Positions 53,396 through 61,195 of a DNA stretch of 64,000 nucleotides are shown one piece after another (position 1 is the first letter of the stretch; each line of letters begins with the position of its first letter). Below the pieces are notes generated by a model. That model made no database searches. It saw only the letters and a program-made list of their open reading frames with translations, and was not told where the DNA came from. This stretch comes from Mucilaginibacter gracilis (GTDB lineage: Bacteria; Bacteroidota; Bacteroidia; Sphingobacteriales; Sphingobacteriaceae). The stretch is from assembly GCF_003633615.1 (NCBI RefSeq), contig NZ_RBKU01000001.1, positions 1,488,001-1,552,000 of the forward strand, written 5' to 3'. A program made the translations under genes and the position numbers.

Positions 53396-54983
53396 CCCCT
53401 AACTCCGCATAATTACCCCGTCTATTTTGAAAAATATAGTGGAACAACGCTTGATTGTTCCTTTTTTTGTTTATTTTGGGCTACCTAATTAGGTTGTCTA
53501 TGTCGTTACCTTCCTGGATTCAAAAATTTAAAGAGCCAAAAACAGAGATCAGGCTTATCAAGGGTACATTTTACAAGTACGCTGTTGAGTATCGTTATAA
53601 TTCTGAAAAAAAGCGGACGGATAAAATAACCCTGGAACTTCTTGGTAAAATCACCGAGAAGGAGGGCTTTGTCCCGTCGGATAAAAAACTAATAAAAGAT
53701 AAAGGCAACAGCCTGCCGGTAGTAGATATCAAAACATACGGATTGTATAATCTCTTTACGTCTTTGCTTGCTGAGGATCTTCCCAGTTTACTTACACTCT
53801 TCCCAGAGCCTGTTAGTCAAACATTATTGACAGTAGCAATGATGCGTTTTGCTTATCAGCACCCAATAAAGCGTATGCCGTTTCAACATGCACATGACTA
53901 CTGTTCTCTGAACTGGGTCACAAAAGGTCTTGATGACAAAGCAATTACAGCTGCATTGAAATATGTAGGAGAAAACAGAGAACTATTGCTGGGCTGGATG
54001 AAAGGCAGATTAGGGGTAAGGGAAGCTATGCAGGATAAATTTGTAATGATTGATTCTACGCACATACCATCCCTTTCAGAACATCTTTCAGTCAACGCAA
54101 TGGGTTATAATCCACAGCATAGCTATGATCCACAAATACGCCTGATGTACATTTTTTCTGCACAAATGCAACAACCGGTGTATTATAGACTTATCAATGG
54201 GAATATTACTGACGTTACATCGATGAAGATATGTGTAGACGAACTAAATATCAAAGATGTGGTTTTCATTGCCGACAAGGGATTTTACAGCAAGAAAAAC
54301 GTCGCTGACCTCAAAACTGCCTCCATTCATTTCATTATCCCACTATACAGAAATAATAATCTCATAGATTATGAACCGCTACAGCAAGCCAATTTTAAAA
54401 AAGGTATAAAGAATTATTTCACCTATCAGAAGAGGGTGGTCTGGTATTATGAATATGAAAAAGAAGGACTGATGCTAACTACTTACCTTGACGAGCGCCT
54501 TAGAGTAGAAGAAGAAGCTGATTTCCTTACCCGTACTCAAACACATCCTGATAAGTATAAAGAAGTTGATTTCTTTGAACGGGTTGACCGTTTTGGAACA
54601 CTTACACTCACGAATCACCTGCCTGAAGCGGTGTCCGCACAAATGTTATATGAAACCTACAAACAGCGCAATGAAATAGAAGTCATGTTTGACGCCTACA
54701 AGCACTTCCTGCTTGCAGACAAAACCTACATGCAGAACCGATATGTGCTGGAAGGATGGTTAATGGCAAATTTTATAGCCATGATCGCATACTACAGGTT
54801 GTATACACGACTAAAAACAGCAAACAAACTTTCAAAATATGCACCAAAGGACATAGTAGAAATATCAAAAAGCATCTACCAAACTAAAATCCGAAACACC
54901 TGGGTAAGATCCGAAATAACAAAAAAGACAAAAGACCTCTTTAAATCTATTGACATAGACTACCTAAATTAGCGGAGTTAGGG
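53396..54983 (+). mobile_element. IS1634/IS4-like insertion sequence
   Basis: A 1588-bp element with terminal inverted repeats (left CCCCTAACTCCGC at 53396, right GCGGAGTTAGGG ending 54983; 12 matched bases then TAATT on both sides). It is flanked by 5-bp direct repeats TTTAA (53391-53395 and 54984-54988), the target duplication. It carries one transposase gene and interrupts the DUF1311 gene. Confidence 0.92.
53500..54972 (+). CDS. DDE transposase, IS1634/IS4-like
   Basis: The 490-residue transposase from ATG 53500 has the phrases FVMIDSTHIPS (Asp185), VVFIADKGFYS (Asp259) and the Y-x2-R-x2-IE-x2-F pattern ending near Glu394, giving the DDE triad of the IS4-like superfamily. The 5-bp target duplication and size fit the IS1634 group. 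TTG codons upstream at 53455 open a longer frame but lie next to the terminal repeat. The stop codon TAG overlaps the right inverted repeat. The copy appears intact. Confidence 0.88.
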   Translation: MSLPSWIQKFKEPKTEIRLIKGTFYKYAVEYRYNSEKKRTDKITLELLGKITEKEGFVPSDKKLIKDKGNSLPVVDIKTYGLYNLFTSLLAEDLPSLLTLFPEPVSQTLLTVAMMRFAYQHPIKRMPFQHAHDYCSLNWVTKGLDDKAITAALKYVGENRELLLGWMKGRLGVREAMQDKFVMIDSTHIPSLSEHLSVNAMGYNPQHSYDPQIRLMYIFSAQMQQPVYYRLINGNITDVTSMKICVDELNIKDVVFIADKGFYSKKNVADLKTASIHFIIPLYRNNNLIDYEPLQQANFKKGIKNYFTYQKRVVWYYEYEKEGLMLTTYLDERLRVEEEADFLTRTQTHPDKYKEVDFFERVDRFGTLTLTNHLPEAVSAQMLYETYKQRNEIEVMFDAYKHFLLADKTYMQNRYVLEGWLMANFIAMIAYYRLYTRLKTANKLSKYAPKDIVEISKSIYQTKIRNTWVRSEITKKTKDLFKSIDIDYLN

Positions 54984-57454: not shown

Positions 57455-57916
57455 CTATTGTTGCTCAAGCAAGGTTAACGCAGCATTATCTTTCGCCCTG
57501 CCAAATAAGTTGTAAATTTTTACCTGGTTGGCTTTTGATGGAATGTTAAATACCAGGCCCTCCAGCGTAATAGGCACAACCTCCGTAATTAACGGTAATA
57601 CATTAACCTAGCCCCCGGCGGTTGCTACCTGTAAATTGCCCATCAGCTCTACACTTACGCCACTCATCAAATAACGGCTAAAAGCGGAGCGGAATTTGCC
57701 TTCGTCTTTTAACTCAACCGGCACTTTAAATGAGTTAAGTATGGCATCTATGGCTTCGGCGGTTTGTTTATCGGTTAGTATATCAATATCGTTGGGCTCA
57801 ACAGGGTAACCGGTAAGCATTAAACTTGTTGTGCCAATAACAAACCAGGGGCGGTTTATTGGGTAGAGTAAATGATGTAACCCTGTTAAGGTTTTTATAA
57901 CCTGCAACTTATCCAT
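57455..57916 (-). pseudogene. Nucleotidyltransferase-like gene with in-frame amber stop
   Basis: The frame encodes a nucleotidyltransferase-like fold in its N-terminal part (FVIGTTSLMLTGYPVEPNDIDILT, with the DID metal motif). After 102 codons a TAG at 57608-57610 breaks it, but the same frame continues for 50 more codons, with sequence such as PITLEGLVFNIPSKANQVKIYN, to a TAG at 57455. A single C-to-T change (CAG to TAG) would account for it. The ATG overlaps the trmD stop (TGATG), so it was co-translated with trmD. Confidence 0.72.
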
Positions 57917-58590
57917 CACTTCAGTAAATCGGGCCGGCGTTGTTTGGTGCGTTCTAAGGCTTGCTCAAAGCGCCATTGCTCAACGGCGGGTGTGTTGCCG
58001 CTTAATAAAATATCGGGCACCTTGTGGCCGTTCCAGTCGGCAGGGCGCGTGTATACCGGTGCATCCAGCATGTCATCCTGGAAAGAATCGCTCAGGGCCG
58101 ATGTTTCATCGCTCAGTACTCCGGGTATTAACCTTACAACGGCATCAACAACAATAGCCGCAGGCAACTCGCCTCCCGAAAGAACATAATCGCCAACAGA
58201 TATTTCGCGGGTAACAAAAATATCGCGGATGCGCTGGTCAATACCTTTATAGTGTCCGCAAAGTATAATAATGTTTTGTTTGATTGATAACTGGTTAGCA
58301 ATTTTTTGGTTAAGCGTTTCCCCGTCCGGGCTCATAAATATCACCTCGTCGTAATCGCGTTCTGCTTTCAGGGCGTCAATACATTTGGCAAAGGGTTCAA
58401 TGGTCATTACCATGCCGCTGCCGCCGCCGTAGGGGTAATCGTCAACACTTTTTTGTTTTTGGGAGCTGTAATCGCGCAGGTTATGCACATGTATTTGGGC
58501 AATGCCCTTTTTTTGGGCACGCTGCAAAATAGAATGTGCAAAGGGGCTCTCCAACAAACCCGGCAAAACGGTAATGATATCAAAACGCAT
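57916..58590 (-). CDS. trmD: tRNA (guanine-N1)-methyltransferase TrmD
   Basis: From ATG 58590 ([17 protein letters not shown]) the 224-residue SPOUT enzyme methylates G37 of tRNAs. It carries the knot region [12 protein letters not shown] and [10 protein letters not shown], plus [13 protein letters not shown]. Earlier in-frame codons lie upstream of the promoter. In many bacteria trmD follows rimM directly; here 2 kb of other DNA separates them, and trmD has its own consensus promoter. Confidence 0.96.
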
Positions 58591-58719: not shown

Positions 58720-58784
58720 AAAAGCAAAAATATAAGGCATCGTAAACAAGCTATAAATTGCAAGTGAAACCTTTATATTTAATA

Positions 58785-59102
58785 ATGCTTAAAACTATAC
58801 TTTATGTTTTATTTATTTCAATTGCGTTCTCCTCATGTGGTGATTGCATTCAGCAAAAAAAAGGAGTTGTTATTAACAAGAAGACTGGAAAACCAATAGA
58901 TAGTGTGAATGTCCATAAAGTTGGAGACCAACAGGGGGAGTACACTGATTCAAATGGTAGCTTTGAGATACATGCTGCTTCTGGCGGGCTTTTCGGATGT
59001 CCAGTGCTTAAGCTTGCTTTTTATAAATATGGATATATTTTAGCTTCGCGAGATATGTCTTCAGATACTATTTATATGGTACCAAACCATTACTCCAAAT
59101 AA
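58785..59102 (+). CDS. Small lipoprotein with CarboxypepD_reg-like domain
   Basis: From ATG 58785 the 105-residue protein has a lipoprotein signal (lipobox FSSC; Cys near residue 18) and a beta-sandwich-like part (GVVINKKTGKPIDSVNVHKV, then GEYTDSNGSFEIHA). The last residues HYSK and the stop are encoded by DNA that is a copy of the rimM 3' end in antisense, so the original C-terminus may have been replaced. TTG at 58758 would add nine residues. Base composition is more AT-rich than around it. It is oriented against its neighbours. Confidence 0.65.
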   Translation: MLKTILYVLFISIAFSSCGDCIQQKKGVVINKKTGKPIDSVNVHKVGDQQGEYTDSNGSFEIHAASGGLFGCPVLKLAFYKYGYILASRDMSSDTIYMVPNHYSK

Positions 59103-59255
59103 ATATCGAGCAACCCTTCGGGCAAATCAACATACACAATACCCTTAACCTCGTCAATCCCGGTAATAATGCCTTCGCTTAGCGGGAACAAAATTTCACG
59201 GTTTTTATAAACTACGGGGCGGCCTCATCTATGGCGGTAACGTCTATTAGGTCGC
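59091..59255 (-). pseudogene. Duplicated 3' fragment of rimM
   Basis: Bases 59091-59218 match the last ~128 bases of rimM (60672 onward) with about eight differences. After an internal deletion of roughly 60-80 bases, 59223-59255 match rimM 60860-60892. The fragment lacks any start and is non-functional. The same orientation as rimM makes the two copies direct repeats around the XRE cassette. Confidence 0.85.
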
Positions 59256-59431: not shown

Positions 59432-59632
59432 TTAATCATTATCATCCAGCATAAATATTTCTTCTACCGGTTTTTTAAATACGCGGGCAATTTTTAGGGC
59501 TAATACCGTTGACGGCACATATTTATTGCTTTCTATAGTGTTAATGGTTTGGCGCGAAACACCAATTAACTCGGCAAGTTCAGCTTGGGTTATGTTTATT
59601 ATGGCACGGTCAACGCGGAGTGAATTTTTCAT
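59432..59632 (-). CDS. XRE-family HTH regulator, 66 aa
   Basis: The protein is little more than a helix-turn-helix: TQAELAELIGVSRQTINTIESNKYVPSTVLALKIARVFKKPVEEIF (about 14-59), like the short YozG-type regulators. Its ATG overlaps the stop of a 25-codon frame (ATGA), which itself starts 3 bases after the membrane protein gene. It probably binds the paired GTCAA-N6-TTGAC sites upstream of that gene and autoregulates the cassette. Confidence 0.88.
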   Translation of the reverse strand: MKNSLRVDRAIINITQAELAELIGVSRQTINTIESNKYVPSTVLALKIARVFKKPVEEIFMLDDND

Positions 59633-59706
59633 AACTTAACATACTCCTTCAATGCTCGTTTGTTATAAAAGATAAACCAATAGGGGAATAAAAACGGTTG
59701 TTTCAT
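59629..59706 (-). CDS. 25-codon open frame between membrane protein and XRE genes
   Basis: ATG 59706 opens a frame for MKQPFLFPYWFIFYNKRAL and six further residues, stopping in the XRE ATG (ATGA). Its start resembles that of the neighbouring membrane protein (MK-x2-FLFP), so it may be a truncated paralogue or a translated leader peptide coupling the two genes. It contains an AAGGAG sequence that would serve as the XRE ribosome binding site. Confidence 0.4.
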   Translation of the reverse strand: MKQPFLFPYWFIFYNKRALKEYVKL

Positions 59707-59709
59707 AAC

Positions 59710-60600
59710 TTATAAGGCTAAGGTAGTTGTTTTTTTTAAATGGGATTCGTTATTTGTACTATGCAATTTGTATTGAAACCATACAATAAAAATGAGCGGA
59801 ATAGTTATCAGGTTTAGCAGTTGTATCTCTAAGAAATCGGAACTATAAAAAAGTATGTTTGATACCAGCAGTATAACATAGTTTACATAAACTGCAACTT
59901 GCATGGCCTCGAGCCTTGTGGCGTTAATGTATTCGTCTTCGGTTTTTTCTTTTGAGTATGCCCAAATCAACAAGCTTATCGGAAGTACGATAAAAGTAGA
60001 TTCCAGAAAATTAACTTTTAATGGAAATACACGGTTAACGATTAGGAAACATATAATAATTATAGATAACCACTTGCCAATAAAGCGATATGGTTTATTG
60101 GTAAGGTAGCGGACGGCTTTAATGTTATACTCGTTTTTGTTTTGATAGAGCAAATAATAGAACCGTAATATAAAAATTAACAACGGCACAAATAGGTTGT
60201 ATATGGTAAAATCCAAATAGTTATCAAAAAATCCAAAACCTGAATGTTGATTAGAACTCGGAACAAACATCAATATGGTGAACAATAAATAGAAACCATA
60301 ATTGACCAGTATAGCCCAGTACAATGCATTGAGTCTTATTTTTCCGGTTAGCTCATCCTCTTGTTTTACCTTCGAAAAAGCAACGAGGAGTAAACCAACA
60401 ATTACAAGAGTTAAAGCGAGTTCATTGGTGAAGTTTTCTAGGGCCTTTAGAAACAAAGTATCTGTTGCGCGCAACCGAAGCACAAAGCCGGGGATTTCGT
60501 AGTTTTGATATAAAACAAAATAGCCTAAAACAAAACCAGGTATACCCAATAAGTAACCGATATACCTGCAATAACCTGGAAATAAAAAGCGAGATTTCAT
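59710..60600 (-). CDS. Polytopic membrane protein with internal duplication
   Basis: From ATG 60600 (MKSRFLFPGYCRYIGYLLG) the 296-residue protein has about eight transmembrane helices in two similar halves. AFSKVKQEDELTGKIRLNAL (74-93) and AYSKEKTEDEYINATRLEAM (214-233) align with the pattern ASK-K-EDE-RL-A and both continue into A-x2-VNY and a membrane helix. No enzyme motif is seen. It is the first gene of the XRE cassette, with a consensus promoter flanked by two operators. AT-rich composition suggests acquired DNA. A longer frame from 60759 would run into rimM and is wrong. Confidence 0.8.
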   Translation of the reverse strand: MKSRFLFPGYCRYIGYLLGIPGFVLGYFVLYQNYEIPGFVLRLRATDTLFLKALENFTNELALTLVIVGLLLVAFSKVKQEDELTGKIRLNALYWAILVNYGFYLLFTILMFVPSSNQHSGFGFFDNYLDFTIYNLFVPLLIFILRFYYLLYQNKNEYNIKAVRYLTNKPYRFIGKWLSIIIICFLIVNRVFPLKVNFLESTFIVLPISLLIWAYSKEKTEDEYINATRLEAMQVAVYVNYVILLVSNILFYSSDFLEIQLLNLITIPLIFIVWFQYKLHSTNNESHLKKTTTLAL

Positions 60601-60604
60601 GATT

Positions 60605-60661
60605 GTCAAAATTAGTTGACCAAATGTAAAACAAATTTTACTTTTGTCAAGTATATTTGAC
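60605..60661 (-). promoter_or_regulatory. XRE-cassette promoter between two GTCAA-N6-TTGAC operators
   Basis: On the minus strand, TTG (60650-60648), a 19-base spacer and TACATTTG (60628-60621) form a consensus promoter. Operator 1 (60646-60661) covers the -33 element and operator 2 (60605-60620) covers the expected start site; both are GTCAA-N6-TTGAC, with centres 41 bases apart (about four helical turns). The arrangement suits cooperative repression by the XRE dimer encoded in the cassette. Confidence 0.78.
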
Positions 60662-60670
60662 AAATTATTT

Positions 60671-61195
60671 CTACTCCAAATAAATATCCAGTAAACCTTC
60701 GGGCAAATCAACATACACAATACCCTTAACCTCGTCAATACCGGTAATAATGCCTTCACTTAGCGGGAACAAAATTTCACGGTTTTTATAAACCACGGTG
60801 GCTATCAATTGCTGTGGAAGTTCCTGAATCTCAATAATGGTTCCCAATGTGCCTTCATCCTCATCTATGGCGGTAAAGCCCATCAGGTCGCGCAGGGTAA
60901 AATCGTTTTCGTCTTTAACGGGTTTTAGTTTGTTTGGCAGGTAAATGTCTTTTTTGGCAAGCGGGGTAGCTTTGTCAATATGGTCAACATCTTCCAGGTA
61001 AATAAAGGCTATATTTTTTTGCGGCATCTTAAACGACTCCACAAAGTAGGGTATCAGTTTCCCACCCGATTGGATAAACAACGCATCAAACGTTAATTTT
61101 TCGGGTTCTCCAAAATCAATAAAAGCCTGCAACTCGCCCTTTAAACCGCGGGTTTTGGTAACGGTGCCAATGCGGAAGCAATCTTCTATCTTCAT
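60671..61195 (-). CDS. rimM: Ribosome maturation factor RimM
   Basis: The 174-residue protein assists 30S assembly by binding S19 and 16S rRNA. The RimM N domain (RIGTVTKTRGLKGELQAFIDF) and PRC-barrel C domain (LRDLMGFTAIDEDEGTLGTIIEI, then REILFPLSEGIITGIDEVKGIVYVDLPEGLLDIY) are complete. It follows rpsP. Its 3' end is duplicated 1.6 kb away, so it may have been the target site for insertion of the accessory cassette next to it. Confidence 0.96.
   Translation of the reverse strand: MKIEDCFRIGTVTKTRGLKGELQAFIDFGEPEKLTFDALFIQSGGKLIPYFVESFKMPQKNIAFIYLEDVDHIDKATPLAKKDIYLPNKLKPVKDENDFTLRDLMGFTAIDEDEGTLGTIIEIQELPQQLIATVVYKNREILFPLSEGIITGIDEVKGIVYVDLPEGLLDIYLE

Follow-up and report, generated by a model that had tools for sequence, protein, structure and literature searches.

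A CylR2-like regulator and a duplicating membrane protein behind a three-operator promoter in Mucilaginibacter: a putative autorepressed membrane-sensor operon

We have found that genomes of Mucilaginibacter encode a membrane protein (here MEM) together with a CylR2-like XRE regulator (here XRE), and that the promoter of this operon carries three tandem palindromic operators. Judging from the sequence, we lean towards the view that the pair forms a self-contained, autorepressed membrane-sensor operon resembling CylR1/CylR2 with a different membrane part. The earlier note on this DNA had suggested an XRE-controlled membrane sensing module, a suggestion now supported by the gene pairing, the promoter operators, the CylR2 homologue and a conserved EDE loop in MEM. 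The pair belongs to a known kind of system and appears to be new in its particulars: it is of CylR2 type and occurs in Bacteroidota, its membrane partner duplicates and has no family name, and its promoter carries three operators. Our literature search found no description of it, although absence from that search is not absence from print.

The stretch analysed (the window, 64,000 nucleotides) comprises positions 1488001-1552000 of the 6.66-Mb Mucilaginibacter gracilis genome. The feature lies on the minus strand at window positions 59432-60661, where the order is promoter, MEM, 25-codon frame and XRE. In window coordinates, the elements and their neighbours are as follows.

60646..60661, minus strand: putative operator O1, GTCAAATATACTTGAC; its right arm is the -33 TTG, and it is conserved in 17 aligned loci
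60626..60641, minus strand: putative operator O2, GTAAAATTTGTTTTAC; its right arm overlaps the -7 element TACATTTG
60605..60620, minus strand: putative operator O3, GTCAACTAATTTTGAC; it covers the expected start site, and its arms covary across the genus
60621..60650, minus strand: predicted promoter, TTG-N19-TACATTTG, read from the sequence
59710..60600, minus strand: MEM, double-unit membrane protein of 296 aa; two predicted 4-helix units, each with an SK-x-K-x-EDE-x5-RL loop
59629..59706, minus strand: 25-codon frame, probably what remains of an additional single-unit MEM copy
59432..59632, minus strand: XRE, CylR2-like regulator of 66 aa, assigned by homology searches
60671..61195, minus strand: rimM, which usually lies upstream in the genus
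57916..58590, minus strand: trmD, which usually lies downstream in the genus
59091..59255, minus strand: degenerate duplicate of the 3' end of rimM (127 nt at 95%, 33 nt at 88%)

The 25-codon frame starts 3 bases past the MEM stop, and the XRE start overlaps the 25-codon frame by ATGA; the coordinates given previously for the three coupled frames all held on recheck.

MEM was detected in 102/149 genomes of the genus by one query and in 105/149 by profile; locus counts use the 102 genomes, which yield 104 stretches. One to three MEM genes are followed by XRE in 100 of these 104 stretches, and in the four exceptions either the contig is cut off (L018, L153) or a double-unit protein without XRE lies beside trmD (L078, L079). 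Among the 100 paired loci, rimM is the upstream neighbour and trmD the downstream one in 67, rimM is present in 76 and trmD in 80; neither lies within the stretch in 11, and the other order occurs in none. At rimM in 12 of the 44 genus genomes that lack MEM, trmD follows about 40-220 bp behind in seven and falls outside the stretch in the remaining five. MEM and XRE are paired in all 12 loci not named Mucilaginibacter in a scan of genome contigs. In the phylum sample, MEM occurs in 44/395 genomes and 28/170 genera, and pairing is seen in 26/30 loci (22/26 without the four own-genus ones); counting by distance gives 21/30 because five XRE frames start too early. Co-occurrence across Sphingobacteriaceae, which the earlier note had raised, is patchy: one MAG of the family (L039) carries the pair between rimM- and trmD-like frames recognized by eye, and the pair was found in none of 5 same-family genomes of other genera among those listed for the phylum sample.

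The M. gracilis genome carries a second, diverged MEM-XRE pair (L002, G000:C1:492780-493160) with EDER in the loop; no perfect GTMAA-N6-TTKAC site was found in its stretch. Carriage of the family on a phage or plasmid was considered and rejected, as one query each returned no relative from viral contigs (profile), plasmids (Nonlabens MEM) or phages (window MEM).

By homology searches, XRE is a homologue of CylR2, with a phmmer E of 3.7e-13 over residues 3-61 of 66 and a profile E of 2.4e-21. Its top solved match is the PbsX-family protein 9k3w (E 2.9e-14), which ranks slightly above CylR2. The domain is HTH_3 (E 2.2e-13), and the LytTR family is absent from the 19 domain matches listed for XRE.

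The promoter, TTG-N19-TACATTTG, is one that we take to follow the Bacteroidota consensus, and TTGAC and TTTACATTTG are invariant across the 17 aligned loci. Two palindromes of the form GTCAA-N6-TTGAC had been described at 60605-60620 and 60646-60661 with centres 41 bp apart; both were confirmed, but the count of two operators has to be revised to three, as O2 (GTAAA-N6-TTTAC at 60626-60641) had been overlooked. Spacers between O1, O2 and O3 are 4 and 5 bp, so that the operator centres stand 20 and 21 bp apart, or about two helical turns. The two-site pattern alone is weakly above chance: the window holds 5 matches at one mismatch or fewer against 1.59 expected, and in a shuffle control for GTCAA-N6-TTGAC, 5 matches were reached in 3/100 window shuffles. 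The three-site array is far above chance, with at least 8/10 letters at all three sites in 68/100 genus loci versus 0/100 shuffled ones (one letter-shuffled copy per stretch). Of the 100 loci of the genus that carry both MEM and XRE, 80 have two or more perfect sites, 37 have three, and nine have a summed operator score below 25. Where the summed score is at least 26, the spacing is 4/5 in 64 loci and 5/5 in 25. The arms of O3 change together (85 loci, Fisher p 5.6e-4, a value that ignores relatedness), which is the behaviour that a dimer site should show; covariation is weak in O1 (p 0.04) and was not seen in O2, where three changes are one-sided. Because the operators lie on the promoter, their occupation would be expected to repress it. 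An extra exact GTCAA-N6-TTGAC occurs at 53816, inside a 505-aa frame (53455-54972, plus strand) that is transposase-like by eye, and is taken as chance.

The array is restricted to this operon. A model of the 57-bp array (57 positions, built from 17 arrays including that of the window) found one strong place in the M. gracilis genome (E 3.6e-14), with the next independent match at E 0.007; a match at E 0.017 is the array read on its other strand. A scan of the 149 genus genomes with this model gave matches at E ≤ 1e-5 in 93/105 genomes with MEM versus 0/44 without it, a limit that was picked after the listing had been inspected and a count of 93 that was made and matched to the MEM list by eye. 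Without the 17 model-building genomes, the array is matched in 76/88 genomes with MEM, and at E ≤ 1e-4 the figures become 94/105 versus 2/44. The two MEM-less genomes near the limit are G028 (1.8e-5) and G132 (5.0e-5), and the array-like match in G028 lies on a contig other than that of its rimM. Twelve genomes have MEM and no array match (G001, G007, G036, G042, G047, G060, G087, G093, G131, G133, G141, G144); among these, G042 and G047 have no XRE in the stretch examined, the contigs of G087 and G093 end within MEM, and in G036 (1.2e-5) the array is shortened beside a transposon end.

A wide XRE regulon was considered and rejected: the later places in the M. gracilis genome reach only E 0.007 (L156), by eye lacking an intact palindrome, and E 0.039 (L158), inside a 537-aa frame. 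Weaker single XRE sites elsewhere in the genome are possible. With no second strong operator array found in the M. gracilis genome, the stress part of the earlier proposal, taken as a stress regulon, finds no support.

The operators seem to be a favoured target of transposon insertion. IS1595-family elements with the end GTCCCAACTGATATATAGTTACC lie in the operators at L192 (G025), L193 (G145), L194 (G049) and L195 (G083), and the same element is also present at L011 (G008), L017 (G062) and L098 (G036). DDE_Tnp_IS1595 was matched in L192, L194 and L195 (E 6e-43 to 1e-41). Both transposon ends are flanked by AATATATTTGAC, the centre of O1, at L192, and by the two halves of O2 at L194; the target copies are 8 bp, with 7/8 letters in L193. 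A transposon end adjoins the array in 7 genus genomes, and this end occurs somewhere in the genome in 19/149.

The repeated unit previously noticed in MEM is real (A74-F-S-K...EDE and A214-Y-S-K...EDE, the EDE residues being 81-83 and 221-223), and a profile of single-unit relatives matches both halves (E 3.7e-32 and 1.3e-22). MEM had also been described as lacking a known domain, in agreement with our searches, where it reached no Pfam or NCBIfam cut-off; 20 MEM relatives compared with Pfam, NCBIfam and PHROGs gave scattered weak matches, the best at E 3.4e-4, 1.3e-3 and 4.9e-3. One likeness is to DUF3796 (PF12676), which the diverged L002 protein matched weakly (E 5.7e-4, 20.7 bits); this is below the cut-off of 24.8 bits, was seen in 1/20 relatives, and a search of the M. 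gracilis genome for the family gave no match at E ≤ 0.01. The single-unit model has four helices with a conserved loop between the second and third (pLDDT 78, moderate), and the double-unit model has the 4-helix unit twice (pLDDT 74, moderate). Foldseek matched the single and double models to no solved fold at E ≤ 0.001, and the best VIA-align result, for the single model only, was Z 6.8 with rmsd 4.6 over 69 residues. Mean conservation in XRE-linked units is 0.74 in the EDE loop, 0.61 in the fourth helix, 0.60 at the N-terminus and 0.27, the lowest, in the first loop. This pattern is consistent with conservation on the cytoplasmic side and variation on the outer side, under a topology predicted from charges.

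The EDE loop follows the presence of XRE. EDE is found in 182/185 XRE-linked units versus 2/28 units without XRE, with L018 set aside because its contig ends before the expected XRE position; if L018 is included, XRE-less units have EDE in 5/31, three of the five coming from L018. Unit rows were the unique proteins of L001, L003-L032 and L045-L154, with 4/220 dropped for a loop gap. Across the 27 columns that are at least 80% conserved in linked units, the largest falls in the units without XRE are those of D (from 1.00 to 0.21) and E (from 0.99 to 0.24), and their neighbours stay, at 0.99 to 0.90 for the E before DE and 0.99 to 1.00 for the R after it. Other columns also fall in XRE-less units, F7 by 0.62, A73 by 0.59 and I84 by 0.57, against 0.79 for D and 0.75 for E. 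A tree of 99 of the 214 usable rows, comprising every XRE-less row (29), 25 linked rows of the phylum sample and 45 of the 160 other linked rows, needs 4 switches from one state to the other, of which at least three are forced by supported branches (sign test p 0.25); two of these three come from the two halves of one type of double protein. EDE was lost in about two lineages, the trmD-adjacent doubles in the genus and the distant singles L070-L072 and L074. Because XRE-less units fall in few lineages, the EDE result is suggestive and not independent proof. Since DE is lost in most units without XRE, we read it as the contact site, and the EDE loop is likely where MEM meets XRE. At the four distant loci (L070, L071, L072 and L074, from distant phylum members), where a single MEM lacks both XRE and EDE, MEM adjoins a gene of about 220-245 aa that is lipoprotein-like by eye.

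In the mechanism that we favour, XRE would act as a CylR2-type dimer that binds the three phased palindromes over the -33 and -7 boxes and the start site, and XRE bound to the operators would shut off its own operon. MEM would be an inner-membrane protein whose termini and EDE loop face the cytoplasm, and the loop would be where it retains XRE or lets it go. Some change at the membrane, perhaps a peptide, a lipid or the envelope state, would alter MEM such that XRE leaves the operators, and its release would lead to more MEM and XRE being made. More tentatively, and with some doubt, we suggest a stricter version, a class of one-operon membrane sensors across Bacteroidota in which a new 4-helix protein family prone to duplication docks a CylR2-type repressor directly by its EDE loop, the promoter elements lie within the three operators, and the sensor is the only output.

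That the strong array is seen at the MEM operon only makes MEM the only strong output in view, which would also suit an effector. MEM might act in the envelope, in transport or in immunity to a peptide, and XRE might be a simple autorepressor that makes no contact with MEM. The amplification and fusion of MEM (1-3 genes per operon) beside a single XRE is as expected for a dosage-sensitive effector, and XRE-less MEM paralogues persist. We nevertheless regard this explanation as unlikely, as the loss of the loop D and E from most units without XRE is unpredicted by a one-way repressor, although that loss traces to about two lineages.

A second alternative makes MEM a membrane co-repressor or tether, with XRE binding DNA only when held by MEM. 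A 4-helix membrane unit next to an XRE domain resembles a split BcrR, which we take to be an XRE-type, fused membrane regulator. In the cited part of one study, the DNA-binding domain of BcrR has no DNA affinity without the membrane domain (PMC13384398). CylR2, a close solved relative of XRE, speaks for the opposite, since its structure is solved and its binding to the promoter was determined in vitro, according to the cited section of a 2013 review (PMC3709268), and we find a tether quite improbable here.

A toxin-antitoxin pair with a membrane toxin is very improbable: two small coupled genes and a likely autorepressing XRE would suit one, and the authors of a 2009 survey told a referee that Xre-membrane pairs could be new toxin-antitoxin systems, but the usual place in the genus is the rimM-trmD locus and not a mobile element, the viral, plasmid and phage queries (one each) returned no relative, PADLOC gave no match to MEM and only HTH-type matches to XRE, and the same survey, in the portion cited, excluded such pairs because type II systems with a membrane component were not known then (PMC2701414).

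The preferred sensor-operon reading is best compared with CylR1/CylR2 of Enterococcus faecalis. XRE is a homologue of CylR2 and has the same length; in both systems a small membrane protein and a repressor are encoded together, as in 100/104 genus stretches here; and the repressor CylR2 binds a promoter of its own locus, as stated in the cited parts of two accounts (PMC3709268, PMC12304293). In the 2013 review, as far as cited, CylR1 has three predicted helices, induction requires it and the model has it act on CylR2, and the route of the signal from CylR1 to CylR2 is said not to be understood (PMC3709268). MEM differs, on a comparison by helix count, in having four predicted helices per unit, often in two units. 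The MEM operon has three tandem operators on its own promoter, in place of a promoter region that the Cyl regulators have in common with a divergent toxin operon; toxin genes were not seen beside MEM-XRE, and its hosts are Bacteroidota.

The LytTR systems HdrRM and BrsRM are likewise two-gene operons of a soluble regulator and a 3-4-helix membrane protein, autoregulated via repeats at their own promoter, in the cited portions of two sources (PMC6193735, PMC13384398), and they establish operons of this make-up as a class. There, the repeats lie upstream of -35 and activate, whereas the MEM-XRE palindromes lie over -33, -7 and the start; moreover, the regulator here is XRE and not LytTR, and the membrane gene comes first and not second. 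The Xre-membrane pairs of the 2009 survey (YoaS-like, PA2784-like and PA4076-like), which we liken by description, also combine a conserved Xre repressor with a membrane protein; they were excluded there, and the cited part of the survey gives their function only as 'likely permease' or 'likely exporter' (PMC2701414). The MEM-XRE family offers more than 100 natural variants of a CylR1/CylR2-like pair in environmental bacteria, and a membrane-protein family without a Pfam entry gains a first functional frame. A two-residue contact candidate (DE) and a single compact operator array make the question of how such a membrane protein signals to its repressor directly testable.

The 25-codon frame is, as its simplest reading, probably a deleted MEM copy. 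The observation that it begins like MEM stands (MKQPFLFPYWF, with 0/2000 shuffles matching as well on average); its treatment as a functional third component in the earlier note is not supported, and the frame fits a deleted copy. It ends in the same ATGA joint as MEM does, and a single-unit MEM occupies its position in 5/23 loci with a double-unit MEM and XRE among L001-L025 (L010, L011 and L021-L023). The 77-bp joint is an outlier, in that only four of 133 MEM-XRE joints, some places being counted twice, exceed 27 bp: the M. gracilis one (present twice, as L001 and L068), L110 and L151. By eye, the L110 gap holds, with frame breaks, a MEM start and then a MEM tail with no middle, and the L151 gap a MEM tail behind a frame break. 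The similarity of the 25-codon tail to the MEM C-terminus was not significant (reached in 140/500 shuffles, and in 184, 201 and 395/2000 by three measures). A regulatory small protein was considered for this frame and rejected on the MEM-like start, the MEM position and the outlier joint.

The duplicated rimM 3' end downstream of XRE is separated from the original by 1581 bp, and a DNA search found no further copy in the M. gracilis genome. Between XRE and trmD, on the opposite strand, lies a 114-aa frame (window 58758-59102, plus strand) that is lipoprotein-like by eye and has a CarboxypepD_reg-like match (E 1e-7) just above its cut-off.
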